Source: Kaistella chaponensis (GTDB lineage Bacteria > Bacteroidota > Bacteroidia > Flavobacteriales > Weeksellaceae). Taken from it: DNA of 64,000 nucleotides. The stretch lies in assembly GCF_900156725.1 (NCBI RefSeq), contig NZ_FTOI01000002.1, forward strand, positions 1 through 64,000. The letters are read 5' to 3'. Below the pieces are notes generated by a model that saw only the letters and a list, made by a program, of their open reading frames with translations, had not been told where the DNA came from and made no database searches. The translations under genes and the position numbers were made by a program. Shown here in pieces: positions 58,052 through 63,725 of this stretch (position 1 is the stretch's first letter; each line of letters starts with the position of its first letter).

Positions 58052-59257
58052 ATGATGAATACAGATCAACCGACAACCGACAACCAACAACCATCAACCA
58101 ACTTGGAAACCAACGCAATCCGCATACAAAACCAACGTTCACATTTTGATGAACATTCTACGCCGCTCTATTTAACTTCCAGCTTTGTTTTTGAAGATGC
58201 AGAAGATATGCGTGCAAGTTTTGCCGAAGAAAAAGAGAAAAACCTTTACAGCCGTTTTTCCAATCCAAACGTGAATGAGTTCACCGAAAAAATGGTGCGC
58301 TTAGAAGGCGCAGAAGATGGATATTCCTTCGCAACAGGAATGGCGGCGATTTTTTCAACTTTTGGAGCATTATTAAATTCCGGCGATCATATTTTGAGTT
58401 GTCGTTCCGTTTTCGGTTCCACACACACGCTTTTTACCAAATATTTTCCGAAATGGAACATCGAAACAACCTATTTTGAGGCCAATGAAACAGATTTAGA
58501 AAAATATCTGACGCCAAATACAAAAATTCTCTATATCGAAACACCGACCAATCCTGCGATTGAAGTTTTAGATTTAGAAATTCTTGGGAAATTTGCAAAA
58601 AAACACAACCTCATTTTCATCGTCGATAATTGTTTTGCGACGCCATACCTGCAACAACCCATAAAATACGGTGTCGATTTGGTCATTCATTCCGCCACGA
58701 AATTAATCGATGGTCAAGGTCGAGTTTTGGGTGGAGTAACCGTTGGGAAAAAAGATTTGATCCGCGAAATTTATTTATTTGCGAGAAATACGGGACCTGC
58801 AATGTCGCCCTTCAACGCTTGGGTTTTGAGTAAAAGCTTAGAAACTTTGGCAATTCGCGTAGAAAAACATTGCGAAAATGCTTTAAAAGTTGCCGAGTTT
58901 TTAGAAACGCAGCACAGTGTTTCCGTGGTGAAATATCCGTTTTTGCAATCGCACCCAAGTTTCGAAACTGCCAAAAAGCAAATGAAAATGGGCGGAAATA
59001 TCGTCGCGTTCGAAATAAAAGGCGGCATCGAAGCCGGCAGAAATTTTCTGAACAAAATAAAAATGTGTTCCCTGTCCGCAAATCTTGGCGATACCCGAAC
59101 AATTGTCACGCATCCCGCTTCTACCACGCATTCTAAGCTTTCTGTCGAGGAGCGAAATGCGGTTGGAATTACCGATGGTTTGGTGCGCTGTTCCGTTGGG
59201 TTGGAGCATTTTGAGGATATTATTAATGATTTAAAACAGGCTCTGGAAAATAATTAG
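58052..59257 (+). CDS. Transsulfuration-family PLP enzyme (MetY/MetZ type homoserine sulfhydrylase)
   Basis: 401 residues of Cys/Met-metabolism PLP fold. NLYSRFSNPNVNEFTEKMVRLEGAEDGYSFATGMAAI, YIETPTNPAIEVLDL, FIVDNCFATPYLQQPIKYGVDLVIHSATKLIDGQGR (Lys in SATKLIDG binds PLP) and the SLGDTRTIVTHPAST-like end. With MetX upstream it should add sulfide to O-acetylhomoserine to give homocysteine; cystathionine gamma-synthase activity is an alternative. The usual start is near LETNAIRIQNQRSH; the first 17 residues are encoded by the CAACCGA repeat (58067-58102). A dispersed hairpin repeat begins in its stop codon. Confidence 0.9.
   Translation: MMNTDQPTTDNQQPSTNLETNAIRIQNQRSHFDEHSTPLYLTSSFVFEDAEDMRASFAEEKEKNLYSRFSNPNVNEFTEKMVRLEGAEDGYSFATGMAAIFSTFGALLNSGDHILSCRSVFGSTHTLFTKYFPKWNIETTYFEANETDLEKYLTPNTKILYIETPTNPAIEVLDLEILGKFAKKHNLIFIVDNCFATPYLQQPIKYGVDLVIHSATKLIDGQGRVLGGVTVGKKDLIREIYLFARNTGPAMSPFNAWVLSKSLETLAIRVEKHCENALKVAEFLETQHSVSVVKYPFLQSHPSFETAKKQMKMGGNIVAFEIKGGIEAGRNFLNKIKMCSLSANLGDTRTIVTHPASTTHSKLSVEERNAVGITDGLVRCSVGLEHFEDIINDLKQALENN
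58067..58102 (+). repeat. CAACCGA-type repeat, within the transsulfuration gene start
   Basis: A 36-bp run of CAACCGA, CAACCGA, CAACCAA, CAACCAT, CAACCAA-type units. It shares the 19-mer CAACCGACAACCGACAACC with the right arm of the inverted repeat at 61039. It is translated here as DQPTTDNQQPSTN. No partner arm is seen close by. Confidence 0.8.
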
Positions 59258-59445: not shown

Positions 59446-59625
59446 ATGAAATCGCCATGATTGGTTTGGAAACACAAACGCCCATGAAGATAGGCGATTG
59501 CATATGACAAATGAAGAACAATAAAATTAACATATGAAATCGCCATTAACAAATTTTCTTGCAAACAAACACCAATGAAGAAGGCGATAACATATGACCA
59601 TTAAAAATAATAGAATCTACATATG
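59446..59625 (+). repeat. 90-bp imperfect tandem repeat ending at the metH start
   Basis: Two units have the common parts ATGAAATCGCCAT (59446, 59534), ATGAAGA...GGCGAT (GGCGAT at 59493, 59583) and CATATGA (59501, 59591). ATCGCC and GGCGAT within each unit can pair to a hairpin. A third ACATATGAAA holds the ATG of the downstream gene (59623). It is not coding in any frame. No known family. Confidence 0.7.
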
Positions 59626-60633
59626 AAAAATACTGCACAATTATATCAAGCACTCAACCAAAGAATCCTCGTTCTCGATGGAGCAATGGGAACGATGCTT
59701 CAACGCTACAATTTCACGGAAGAAGATTATCGTGGTGAACGTTTCAAAGATTGGGAAAGTTCTTTAAAAGGAAACAACGATTTGCTTTCATTGACGCAAC
59801 CAAAAGCAATCGAAGAAGTTCACCGCAAATATTTAGAAGCCGACGCAGATATTATTGAAACCAACACTTTTTCCGGCACGACCATCGCAATGGCAGATTA
59901 TCACATGGAAAAATTGGTGTATGAACTCAATTTCGAATCCGCAAAAATCGCTAGAAAAGTTTGCGACGAATTCACAGAGAAAAATCTCGCAAAACCGAGA
60001 TTTGTAGCAGGTTCCATCGGTCCAACCAACAGAACTGCGAGTTTAAGTCCGGATGTTAATGATCCCGGATTTCGTGCAATCACTTTTGATCAATTAAGAA
60101 TTGCCTATAAACAACAAGCTGAAGCACTTTTAGATGGTGGTTCAGATATTCTTTTGGTAGAAACAATTTTTGATACTTTAAACGCAAAAGCTGCACTTTT
60201 TGCGATTGATGAAATTCAGGAAGAAAGAAATATTCAAATTCCGATCATGGTTTCGGGAACAATCACCGATGCTTCCGGACGAACTTTGAGCGGACAAACT
60301 GCAGAAGCTTTTTTAATTTCCGTTTCGCATCTAAATCTTTTGAGTGTTGGTTTTAACTGTGCACTAGGAGCCGAACAATTGACGCCGTATTTAGAAACTT
60401 TATCCAAAAATTCCGACTTTTATATTTCCGCTTACCCAAATGCAGGATTACCAAATGCATTCGGACAATACGATGAATCCCCGGAATTTATGGCAGAACA
60501 AATCCTTGAATATGCCGAAAAGGGACTCATCAATATCATCGGAGGTTGTTGCGGAACAACGCCTCCACACATTAAAGCAATTGCAGACTTGGTGAAGAAT
60601 TATCAACCAAGAAAGTTGTCGGTTGTCGGTTGA
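59623..60633 (+). CDS. Homocysteine S-methyltransferase module of split methionine synthase MetH
   Basis: 336 residues of TIM-barrel homocysteine methyltransferase domain: VLDGAMGTMLQRYNFTEEDYRG, ETNTFSGTTIAMADYHME, GSIGPTNRTASLSPDVNDPG, and zinc Cys in LSVGFNCALGAEQ and IIGGCCGTTPPHIKAI. It equals residues 1-330 of MetH. The stop TGA lies inside the left arm of an inverted repeat, so its last residues (KLSVVG) come from the repeat. The other modules are encoded at 61017-63725, and a four-helix-bundle gene lies between. Its start ATG is in a CATATGA repeat. Uses zinc to activate homocysteine. Confidence 0.92.
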   Translation: MKNTAQLYQALNQRILVLDGAMGTMLQRYNFTEEDYRGERFKDWESSLKGNNDLLSLTQPKAIEEVHRKYLEADADIIETNTFSGTTIAMADYHMEKLVYELNFESAKIARKVCDEFTEKNLAKPRFVAGSIGPTNRTASLSPDVNDPGFRAITFDQLRIAYKQQAEALLDGGSDILLVETIFDTLNAKAALFAIDEIQEERNIQIPIMVSGTITDASGRTLSGQTAEAFLISVSHLNLLSVGFNCALGAEQLTPYLETLSKNSDFYISAYPNAGLPNAFGQYDESPEFMAEQILEYAEKGLINIIGGCCGTTPPHIKAIADLVKNYQPRKLSVVG

Positions 60634-60639
60634 TGGTTG
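60616..60639 (+). repeat. Left arm of 24-bp inverted repeat
   Basis: TTGTCGGTTGTCGGTTG then ATGGTTG, matching the complement of 61039-61062 with a single mismatch (23 of 24). It contains the stop codon of the upstream metH module. Confidence 0.85.
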
Positions 60640-60661
60640 TCAGAATTGTAAAAAACAAAAT

Positions 60662-61027
60662 ATGGAATACACAAGTTTGGAAGTCTGGATTGAATCCAGA
60701 AAATTAACCAATTTAGTCTATAACTTAATTAAAAATTTTCCGAAAGAAGAAATATACGGTTTAACAAATCAAATCCGAAGGTCTGCAGTTTCTGTTCCTT
60801 CAAATATTGCAGAAGGATGCGGAAGGAGAACTTCTAAAGATACACTTCAATTTCTGCATATTTCAAGAGGGTCTTTATACGAACTGGAAACCCAATTTTA
60901 TCTCGCATTAGACCAAAAGTATATTTCTGCAGAAGAGTTTAGTCAAGTTGCGAATCAGTCTTTAATTTGTAAAAAATTGCTCAACGGATTTATTAATTAT
61001 TATAAAAATTTAGAAAATGGGAAGTGA
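60662..61027 (+). CDS. Four-helix-bundle protein (23S rRNA intervening-sequence/Avd-like family)
   Basis: 121 residues from ATG 60662; a TTG at 60623 opens the frame earlier but lies in the inverted repeat. The family motifs are complete: [71 protein letters not shown] and [10 protein letters not shown]. The protein forms a four-helix bundle; homologues are encoded in 23S rRNA insertions and next to diversity-generating retroelements, where Avd binds RNA and the reverse transcriptase. No reverse transcriptase is in the window. Its end overlaps the next metH module start by 11 bp. The role here is unknown. Confidence 0.9.
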
Positions 61028-63725
61028 TATAAATCCATCAACCAACAACCGACAACCGACAACCAAAAAATATTTAAAACTTTCCGGTTTAGAACCGCTC
61101 GTTATTACGCCGGAATCTAATTTTATTAACGTTGGTGAAAGAACTAATGTTGCTGGATCCAAGAAATTCCTTCGATTGATCAAAGAAGGAAATTATACAG
61201 AAGCACTCGATATTGCACGAAATCAGGTGGAAGGCGGCGCGCAAATTTTGGACGTAAATTTCGATGACGGTTTACTCGATGGAAAATTTGCGATGGTAAA
61301 ATTCCTAAATTTAATTGCATCTGAACCCGATATTTCCCGAATTCCAATCATGATCGATTCTTCGAAATGGGAAATTTTGGAAGCCGGATTGCAAGTTGTT
61401 CAAGGAAAATGTGTGGTAAATTCCATCAGTTTAAAAGAAGGCGAAGCAGAATTTATTTCGCATGCAAAAACCATTAAAAGATATGGAGCAGCGGTCATTG
61501 TGATGGCTTTTGATGAAGAGGGACAAGCTGACAATTACGACAGAAGAGTGGAAATCTGTAGCAGAAGTTACCAAATATTGACAGAAATTGTAAAATTTCC
61601 CTCGGAAGACATTATTTTCGATCTCAATATTTTCCCTGTCGCAACCGGAATGGAAGAACACCGCAGAAATGCTCTTGATTTCATAGAAGCTACAAAATGG
61701 GTTCGGGAAAACTTGCCAAATGTTTCCGTGAGTGGTGGAGTTTCCAATGTTTCGTTTTCGTTCCGTGGGAATGATAATGTTCGGGAAGCAATGCATTCTG
61801 TTTTTCTGTATCACGCGATCAAAGCGGGAATGAACATGGGAATCGTGAATCCGACCATGTTGGAAGTCTATGACGAAATCCCAAAAGAATTACTGGAATT
61901 GGTGGAAGATGTGATGCTCGATCGACAAGATGATGCAACAGAAAGACTTCTCGATTATTCCGAACGTGTAAAATCGACCAAAAAAGAATTTGTAGAAGAA
62001 TTAGAATGGCGAAAAGAACCTTTACAAAATAGAATTACGCACGCTTTGGTAAAAGGTACGGATCGGTTTATTCTCGAAGATGTGGAAGAAGCAAGAGCTA
62101 ATTCTTCCAGACCTTTAGACGTTATTGAAATTAATTTAATGACCGGAATGGGCGTGGTTGGAGATTTATTTGGAAGTGGAAAAATGTTTTTGCCTCAAGT
62201 TGTAAAATCTGCGAGAGTGATGAAAAAAGCCGTGGCCTACTTGCAACCTTTCATTGAAGCAGAAAAAGATGAAAAACAAAAACCCAACGGCAAAATCTTA
62301 ATGGCGACGGTAAAAGGCGATGTTCACGATATCGGAAAAAATATTGTGAGCGTCGTTTTGGGGTGCAATAATTATGAGATCATCGATTTGGGAGTAATGG
62401 TTCCGGCAGAAAAAATTATTGCAGCCGCCATTGAACATCAAGTTGATGTGATTGGATTAAGTGGATTAATCACGCCAAGTTTAGATGAGATGGTTCACGT
62501 TGCCGATGAACTGCAGCGAAAAAATTTAAATTTTCCTTTGTTAATCGGAGGAGCAACCACTTCAAAAGCGCATACCGCGGTAAAAATATTTCCAAAATAC
62601 GGACATACTGTTGTTCACGTAAATGACGCTTCCAGAGCAGTTGGCGTGGTTTCTCAGTTGTTAGATCACAATAATGTTCAATATAAAGCGGATTTAAAAA
62701 TTGATTATGAAGATTTTAGGATCAAATTTTTAGACCGACAGATTGAGAAAGAATATGTAACGATTGAGGAAGCCAGAAAGCAGAAATTCAACATCGATTG
62801 GGAAAATGAAGAAATATCGAAACCGAATTTCTTAGGAATAAAAGTCATTGAAAATCAGGATTTACGGGAATTACTGGATTTTGTAGATTGGAGTCCTTTT
62901 TTCCGTAGTTGGGAACTGCACGGAAAATATCCGCAGATTTTAACCGATGAGGTTGTTGGCGAACAAGCCACAGAATTATTTAAAGAAGCGAAAGTTTTAT
63001 TGGATAAAATTCTGGACGAAAAACTATTTATCGCCAAAGGAATTTTCGGAATTTTCCCGGCGAATTCTAATGAAGAGGATGATATTTTAATTTCAGATGA
63101 AGATGGAAACGAAGTAGCGAAATTCCGAACGTTAAGACAACAATTGAAGAAATCTGCCGGAAAAGAATATAATGCGTTAAGTGATTTTATTGCACCGAAA
63201 TTTTCTGGAAAGCAGGATTATGTCGGTGCTTTTGCAGTGACAACTGGTTTCGGAACGGAAGAACTCGCGCAGCAATATTATGATGATGGTGATGATTACA
63301 ACGCCATTATTGTAAAAGCTTTAGCGGATCGTCTCGCAGAAGCATTTGCAGAATATTTACATTATAAAGTTCGAACAGAATTTTGGGGTTATGCAAAGAA
63401 TGAAAATTTAGAAAACGAAGATCTGATTGCCGAAAAATATTCAGGAATTCGTCCCGCTCCAGGTTATCCAGCTTGTCCAGATCATTTGGAAAAAACCACA
63501 ATTTGGGAATTGTTGAAGGTGAAAGAAAATATCGGTTTAGAATTGACGGAAAGTTTGGCAATGTTCCCTACTGCGGCAGTTTCCGGTTATTTTTTTGGAA
63601 ACCCGAAAGCGAAATATTTTGGCGTTGGAAAAATTAAAGAAGATCAGCTGAAAGATTTTGCGGAAAGAAAAGGAGTGGATTTAGAATTCGCCAGAAAATG
63701 GTTAAGCCCGAATTTGGCCGATTAA
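61017..63725 (+). CDS. metH: Methionine synthase MetH, pterin/cobalamin/activation modules
   Basis: 902 residues. The N-terminal extension [17 protein letters not shown] is encoded by the right repeat arm. Then the methyltetrahydrofolate-binding module (about 28-290, [16 protein letters not shown]), the cobalamin cap and B12-binding Rossmann domain with the cobalt-ligand His ([19 protein letters not shown], about 438-456, and SGLITPSL), and the AdoMet reactivation domain ending [22 protein letters not shown] and [16 protein letters not shown]. It transfers methyl from methylfolate through cobalamin to homocysteine, together with the module at 59623. Needs B12. Confidence 0.94.
61039..61062 (+). 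repeat. Right arm of 24-bp inverted repeat
   Basis: CAACCAACAACCGACAACC then GACAA, the complement of 60616-60639 with one mismatch. It is read in frame as part of the N-terminus of the metH main gene. Confidence 0.85.

Follow-up and report, generated by a model that had tools for sequence, protein, structure and literature searches.

An intervening-sequence protein gene framed by inverted heptamer arrays between the methionine synthase modules of Kaistella chaponensis, probably one copy of a widespread compact element

Genes of the S23 or 23S rRNA intervening-sequence protein (IVP) family, PF05635, for which no function is known (PMC4990558), have been described in insertions of ribosomal RNA genes. 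In Coxiella burnetii the intervening sequence (IVS) holds an S23 open reading frame (ORF), a 28-bp terminal stem that is cut by RNase III and, before the ORF, GACAGAT heptamers whose number varies between strains (PMC4990558), and insertions in the 16S and 23S rRNA of bacteria of the candidate phyla radiation (CPR) carry the family as well (PMC11270868). One member, XCC0516, is a pentamer of four-helix bundles (PMC4990558), the Avd protein of diversity-generating retroelements (DGRs) has a homologous fold (PMC10053308), and 18 IVP genes have been reported in cas loci, listed among the associated functions (PMC3936711). Dispersed heptamer repeats are also on record, namely TAACTGA (PMC4679880) and, in Xanthomonas and Nostoc, GGGAATC and GGGGA(C/T)T, with 186 GGGAATC arrays and 70 convergent inverted pairs in one Xanthomonas (PMC4692102). 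These and all later statements from the literature refer to the available excerpts of the papers cited. To our knowledge, bacterial heptamer repeats have found little explanation so far. Here we analyse an IVP gene between the two methionine synthase (metH) modules in a stretch of 64,000 nt from Kaistella chaponensis (contig NZ_FTOI01000002.1, positions 1 to 64,000), hereafter the window.

We read this feature as one copy of a widespread, compact IVS-like element, in which a PF05635 gene occupies the loop of a hairpin whose arms are inverted arrays of 7-nt (sometimes 8-nt) units, and we give this reading a probability of roughly 0.6. The parts of the window locus are as follows.

59623 to 60633, forward strand: ORF of the first metH module, the homocysteine S-methyltransferase part (PF02574, 338 bits; natural ends seen in relatives)
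60615 to 60643, forward strand: left (5') arm, tandem 7-nt units GTTGTCG GTTGTCG GTTGATG GTTGTCA, best lag 7
60662 to 61027, forward strand: IVP gene, 121 aa, a four-helix-bundle protein of the 23S rRNA intervening-sequence family (PF05635, TIGR02436, PDB relatives)
61017 to 61027, forward strand: 11 nt common to the IVP gene and the beginning of the second metH module
61036 to 61064, forward strand: right (3') arm CATCAACCAACAACCGACAACCGACAACC, units CAACCGA, encoding the N-terminus of the second metH module
61017 to 63725, forward strand: ORF of the second metH module (pterin, B12 and activation domains by profile matches), with the arm-encoded N-terminal tail

An earlier note on this DNA had assigned the protein to the 23S rRNA IVP family, and profile searches corroborated this over the full domain, with 129.2 bits for PF05635 (cut-off 33.8) and 126.3 bits for TIGR02436 (cut-off 24); the PDB structures 2gsc (XCC0516) and 2rld are related to it. 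The inverted repeat that it described also holds, the 24-nt arms at 60616-60639 and 61039-61062 being complementary at 23 of 24 positions, and so do the position of the last codons and stop (60633) of the first module inside the left arm, the translation of the right arm in the second module and the 11-nt overlap. The conserved peptide of the second module follows directly after the right arm, and a full-length second module must therefore translate the arm. What goes beyond that note is that the arms are tandem 7-nt units and that the gene family as a rule has arms of this kind. With at most one mismatch, CAACCGACAACC has 8 matches in the window against 0.14 expected, a number reached by none of 100 shuffles, and three of the eight lie outside the element, at 58067-58092. 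The RNA fold predicted for 60590-61090 has z = -5.1, with the stem closed.

The likeness to the Coxiella IVS, with its heptameric repeats, stem and RNase III cleavage, is real: protein family, a length of about 430-450 nt, heptamers before the ORF and an ORF in the loop of a terminal inverted repeat that forms a stem are common to both (PMC4990558). The window copy differs in lying between protein genes of an operon instead of within a 23S or 16S rRNA gene, in having arms of locus-specific units matched on both sides, and in that the protein is under purifying selection, whereas the Coxiella results suggest that S23p is not synthesized (PMC4990558). The window protein matches only PF05635 and, weakly, bAvd; its scores for the Avd profiles PF22296 (20.9 bits) and NF033474 (24.9 bits) lie below the cut-offs of 40 and 80, and a reverse transcriptase, which should stand beside a DGR Avd gene, is not adjacent, the sole RVT_1 match of the genome being on another contig (L325, contig C9 near 134.5 kb) in a 1881-aa open frame with a TOTE-type archaeo-eukaryotic primase (AEP-TOTE) domain.

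The genome (3.04 Mb, 34 contigs) has six PF05635 genes, all between operon genes and all flanked by inverted arrays of short units, each with a unit of its own (gene names other than metH read from peptides).

metH1/metH2 (window locus): unit GTTGTCG
groES/groEL: unit TTRGCNN
beside rsmD: GGATGTT-type unit
before sufD: unit TTTGANN
between thiolase and acyl-CoA dehydrogenase genes: units TTTTAGA/TTATAAA
carA/carB: AATGTAAC-type unit

The array pair at groES/groEL (L002) is weak, with a local alignment score of 11, and was missed by the repeat finder that found the other five. The family is present in 47 of 60 genomes, own genome included, and in 36/36 within the genus. From the matches listed we took 135 loci, the six above and 129 further ones (29, and 100 chosen by hand in E-value order), leaving out 17 matches (15 low-scoring, two near contig ends). 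A lag of 7 was the best period in 84 of 135 left and 84 of 135 right flanks (62%), lag 8 coming next (19 and 24), compared with 9 left and 5 right control stretches taken 460 nt further out, mostly in coding sequence; a lag-7 identity of at least 0.75 was reached in 45 left and 53 right flanks, and in 0 and 1 of these controls. Spacers between co-directional genes had lag 7 as best period in 12/74 cases in IVP-bearing and 4/34 in IVP-free genomes, and an identity of at least 0.75 in 3/74 and 0/34. Strict lag-7 arrays numbered 3 in 200 kb from ten IVP-bearing genomes and 2 in the window. Ten IVP-free genomes had none in 173 kb; these genomes are small, and their lifestyle may confound the comparison. 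When each left flank was paired in inverted orientation with its own right flank, the mean score was 15.7, compared with 8.8 for foreign right flanks and a maximum of 9.6 in 5000 permutations, and 93 of the 135 loci paired above the 99th percentile of shuffled flanks.

The same rule extends to other phyla. A scan of a genome collection gave at least 579 relatives, of which the best 80 were taken and 77 used, three having too little flank; most are from Bacteroidota, and one or two loci apiece come from Alphaproteobacteria, Nitrospirales, Syntrophobacterales, Planctomycetota, Anaerolinea, Gastranaerophilales, Chlorobiota, Balneolaceae, Ignavibacteriales and others. Lag 7 was best in 64 left and 65 right flanks of these 77 loci, compared with 8/73 controls, and pairing of a locus's own arms scored 16.4 against 9.0 for mismatched arms (largest permutation 10.1), with 45/77 loci above the 95th percentile reached by mismatched pairs. 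Plasmids seldom carry the family: 32 of 72,556 records had a match, for the most part records from cyanobacteria. Nine plasmid loci from these 32 records were read, and all nine have repeat arms on both sides; two of them are nearly identical plasmid copies from a single strain, and later counts rest on eight. Among the positions of the nine are cas10/cmr3, cas6/cas4 (twice) and nrdB/nrdA.

Arms match within a locus, differ between loci and, where the proteins are close, follow the protein lineage across sites and genera. Of the 34 loci with a protein at 55% identity or more to that of the window, 29 have GTTG units (pitch 7, either arm), compared with 4/51, 0/71 and 5/56 in the lower identity bands (together 9/178; 212 loci in all). 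Judged by flank similarity, the GTTG-bearing close relatives occupy eight or more sites, among them positions before metH2, at metH2/metF, trpE/trpG and trpD/trpC and at a 3-hydroxyacyl-CoA dehydrogenase-like gene (names read from peptides). Outside the own-genus set, 14 loci precede metH2, 12 of them with metH1 upstream, and GTTG units are present in some of these, not in all. Among pairs of loci at different sites, for which the 164 of 220 loci with arms were used, the unit was shared by 75% (12 pairs) at 70% protein identity or more, 34% (35) at 65-70%, 25% (169) at 60-65%, 13% (418) at 55-60%, 3% (1034) at 50-55% and 1-2% below 50%, the signal coming chiefly from the GTTG and CAAGAAT classes; L055, from a genome of the genus, and L231, from Kaistella treverensis, have identical arms and are probably one species counted twice. 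A correlation of unit and protein within the order alone was also considered and given up, being absent overall (Spearman 0.016); it appears only at high identity and once other genera are added. Pairs at the same site with a protein similarity of 0.5-0.7 have arms that match inside a genome (17.1) and not across genomes (10.5), within exceeding cross in 133/143, and above 0.7 the two pairings are about equal. Arms that match within but not across genomes imply that both arms change together, or that new elements replace old ones.

The element also has a near-fixed polarity, is mostly in sense between two genes of one operon and encodes a protein under purifying selection. Among the 164 loci whose arms score at least 12, G outnumbers C in the 5' arm of 152 (91/96, 53/60 and 8/8). 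Both neighbours are co-directional with the gene in 120 of 129 scorable loci (2 antisense), in 59/74 of the cross-phylum loci (3 antisense) and in 4/8 of the plasmid loci (3 antisense); all these calls are longest-frame guesses, and one plasmid locus, L223, was misjudged, being in sense according to its annotation. The median dN/dS of same-site genes is 0.14 (52 of 348 pairs, those with pS 0.1-0.6), and we therefore take the protein to be under selection; at the same time, 10 of 135 IVP genes (L002, L003, L052, L088, L149, L154, L163, L168, L176 and L179) have one in-frame stop codon each in the domain.

The metH junction could be obtained from 30 of the 36 genomes of the genus. It holds an IVP gene in 5, a 150-aa gene in 8, a gene-less hairpin in 8 (one of them REP-like, that is, like a repetitive extragenic palindrome), another gene of 365 aa in 2, a 524-nt insert without an ORF in 1 and neither gene nor hairpin in 6. 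Of the loci with the 150-aa gene (L057, L058, L059, L062, L064, L067, L072 and L080), 7/8 have REP-like CACGAAGTGG sequences, and in L058, the one copy scanned, the gene is a Y1_Tnp transposase. The junction is a hot spot for several hairpin-framed small elements. The earlier note had held that the gene should not be found here without repeat arms, and all five IVP cases do have them, three scoring just 11-11.5 in the arm-pairing test. In these cases the natural end of module 1 and the natural start of module 2 are lost and module 2 begins inside or beside the IVP gene, with overlaps comparable to that in the window, or shifted starts, when the other genomes are read by eye. A Flavobacterium-like metH/IVP/metF stretch was also seen in a record titled Klebsiella pneumoniae metagenome-assembled genome (L226), a title that looks wrong.

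Gene-less GTTG arrays were found at about ten places in the own genome. One of them (L007) is a two-armed gene-less hairpin by the repeat finder, three (L019, L025 and L026) are so by eye alone, and the remainder include single arrays in coding sequence. The five genomes of the genus with a GTTG-type gene have 10, 4, 6, 2 and 1 gene-less places (mean 4.6), compared with 0.81 in the other 31 (permutation p 0.0003; Mann-Whitney p 0.0013, or 0.005 without the own genome), places being counted from the match list and genomes being classed by a GTTG-type gene among the loci read; a reversed control pattern gave 6 matches in the 36 genomes. Since these genomes are related, the enrichment is suggestive. 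The arrays look like relatives or remnants of the element because they are enriched in genomes with a GTTG-clade gene, and this bears on the other prediction of the earlier note, that arms at many sites without the gene would speak against an element: such sites do exist, about ten in this genome alone, and to that extent the objection holds, but they are commoner in genomes that carry a gene of this clade. The octamer pair AATNTAAC had no match in the own genome. One array lies in the window itself.

58065 to 58103, forward strand: gene-less CAACCGA array, read in frame as QPTTDNQQPST close to the N-terminal end of the ORF at 58052

It is possibly the remnant of a former element.

REPs and their associated tyrosine transposases (RAYTs) offer a parallel for such a pattern, and in RAYTs the class of repeat is tied to the protein lineage. 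As with RAYTs and their REP/REPIN sequences, one small gene is framed by inverted repeats, gene-less copies of the repeats occur in gene-bearing genomes (4.6 against 0.81 places) and the metH junction is used in relatives. The protein here is a four-helix bundle without a known nuclease domain and not a Y1 (HUH) transposase, and, unlike REPs, the arms are tandem 7-nt arrays of fast-changing sequence. The dispersed heptamer repeats share the 7-nt units and the mostly intergenic position; their descriptions mention no linked gene in the excerpts available, and the Nostoc repeats are rarely paired (PMC4692102).

We hypothesise that gene and arms travel as one unit. The element would have no promoter of its own and would live off the operon transcript, so that mostly sense copies persist. 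Between cistrons its hairpin RNA would do no damage, and RNase III probably cuts it as it does the IVSs of 23S rRNA; on this proposal, rRNA and operon spacers are alike in tolerating a break in the RNA. The protein probably recognises and binds the repeat array, in RNA or DNA, and such binding could keep arms and protein lineage together; a pentameric protein ring reading one repeat unit per subunit is an attractive possibility, by analogy with XCC0516. Gene-less arrays and hairpins would be remnants or non-autonomous relatives, standing to the element as REPs do to RAYTs. At metH the element now appears to supply both the stop of module 1 and the start of module 2, and the IVP ORF would thereby also lead translation into module 2.

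Several observations weigh against the reading as a widespread element. The loci are mutually related, so that the counts are not independent, and 40 of the 135 have no arms scoring at least 12. Arms match chiefly by their shared unit, the order of units adding slight information: a strict unit-by-unit palindrome was considered and dropped as weak, the observed score exceeding the unit-permuted one by 3.2 over 90 loci, and by 2.1 over the 72 loci of a scrambled calibration. Direct-orientation alignment of the flanks is also raised (mean 11.7, median 9.0), the mean because 23/135 loci score at least 14 that way, and spacers without the gene can be hairpins too, with a two-half inverted score of at least 12 in 5/48. 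With the GTTG class excluded, pairs at 60% identity or more share a unit in just 7% of 128. Copies within one genome are mostly very divergent, and there has therefore been no recent burst. At the 30 metH junctions no clean empty site or target duplication was found, the ancestral spacer being replaced, not split, with boundaries blurred by repeat turnover, and a classical insertion with target duplication is therefore not shown. Vertical inheritance at metH, which was considered and set aside, is likewise to be counted here, the divergences of IVP gene and metH being barely correlated (17 loci, Mantel r 0.19, p 0.063). A clean insertion in murG was rejected: the GTTG/CAAC hairpin seen by eye at about 1490-1570 of L025 lies in frame in a murG loop of the own genome, three relatives (L193, L197 and L201) hold different heptamer arrays in that loop, and heptamer arrays arise in place there. 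Selection on a sense RNA stem through wobble pairs was not supported in 95 loci (78 G.U against 140 A.C mismatches); the surplus of A.C is matched by a preponderance of A over T among the mismatches in general (A.A 89, T.T 44). Finally, no relative was found in 50,697 phage records, and a narrow peptide-pattern scan of viral contigs confirmed none.

Two of these points have an observation beside them. At L135, L136, L137, L141, L155, L167 and L176, C-rich arrays (e.g. TTAACCT) lie upstream in the same sense as downstream, direct and not inverted; perhaps adjacent elements share an arm. As to phages, a four helix bundle gene of two Flavobacterium columnare strains, flanked by the genes for guanylate kinase and for an adenylyltransferase, has been classed as a phage element (PMC5524665); it may be another such copy.

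The hairpin could instead be a domesticated post-transcriptional device, in which the protein, by binding its own hairpin, adjusts how the two flanking cistrons are processed or translated and owes its persistence to a benefit for the host, not to its own spread. The purifying selection on the protein, the coupled ORFs at metH and the 14 loci before metH2 described above are compatible with such a role, as are groups of 20, 16, 9, 8, 7 and 7 loci with similar flanks, some of which contain unrelated IVP proteins, so that their members are not all one inherited copy, and sites between genes of partner products such as groES/groEL, carA/carB, rfbB/rfbA and scoA/scoB (names read from peptides). 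Against such a device stands its presence at just 5/30 metH junctions of the genus, others having the 150-aa transposase-like gene or a gene-less hairpin; moreover, no pathway is common to the sites, cyanobacterial plasmids have antisense copies, 10/135 genes have internal stop codons and IVP and metH show no clear co-divergence, so we consider domestication possible but unlikely. Heptamer slippage, together with template switching between arms, could also build hairpins neutrally in tolerant spacers, the IVP gene being there by coincidence. The in-place arrays in the murG surface loop, with units differing by species, the gene-less hairpins and solo arrays and the matching of arms by unit and not by unit order would fit. 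Against this stand the rarity of strict lag-7 arrays elsewhere (3 in 200 kb and 0 in 173 kb), the 12/74 co-directional spacers compared with 84/135 IVP flanks per side, and the unit that follows the protein lineage across sites; neutral repeats, already weakened by the lineage and spacer comparisons, are an improbable explanation.

The earlier note had itself proposed that the design of a 23S rRNA intervening sequence was transplanted once into an mRNA, where RNase III processing could separate the transcripts. The protein family, stem and heptamer repeats shared with the Coxiella IVS (PMC4990558) and the strong predicted stem speak for a common design, but a single transfer is very improbable: the family is in 36/36 genomes of the genus, operon junctions are its ordinary home in the loci read, a few conserved 23S words, looked for in a simple search of 220 loci, were found in none, and the rRNA copies look like one special case. 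That the gene is an accessory of CRISPR-Cas or another partner system, as was proposed for the 18 IVP genes in cas loci (PMC3936711), would agree with the plasmid copies at cas6/cas4 and cas10/cmr3. The three cas-locus copies read carry repeat arms like the others, however, and the other named sites are unrelated to cas, so that the gene is not confined to such loci; as a general role this is already unlikely, and as an account of the window copy we give it hardly any weight.

Returning to the element reading, IVSs, REP/RAYT pairs and heptamer repeats are each already known, and the new part is the rule that PF05635 genes lie in matched arrays with a lineage-tied unit. We did not find this rule stated in the available excerpts of the open-licence PMC literature, where the Coxiella IVS paper comes nearest (PMC4990558). 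There is a real chance that these elements form a class of their own. In its full form, namely a pentamer reading 7-nt repeats and spreading with its arms through host transcripts, mRNA spacers as well as rRNA, while leaving gene-less hairpins behind, we put this forward tentatively, as a conjecture that is clearly less likely than not; if it were true, its footprints would include many heptamer repeats of Bacteroidetes, cyanobacteria, Xanthomonas and Beggiatoa that so far lack an explanation. The IVP family and heptamer repeats are now linked across phyla, with the unit tied to lineage among close proteins; the intervening sequences of rRNA appear as one instance of a broader kind of element, the arms offer an alternative reading of the IVP genes reported in cas loci, and for essential operons, groESL, carAB and metH among them, testable claims on RNA processing follow.

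Two minor observations concern unit arrays in coding sequence. The ORF at 58052, which by its sequence resembles a pyridoxal phosphate (PLP)-dependent transsulfuration enzyme, starts with the arm-like array QPTTDNQQPSTN, and a CAAGANN-like stretch directly upstream of it makes 58052-58103 a possible double remnant. In the middle of L014 (minus strand), a unit array is translated as NPQPTTDNQT in the linker of a DNA polymerase I-like gene (name read from the peptide).

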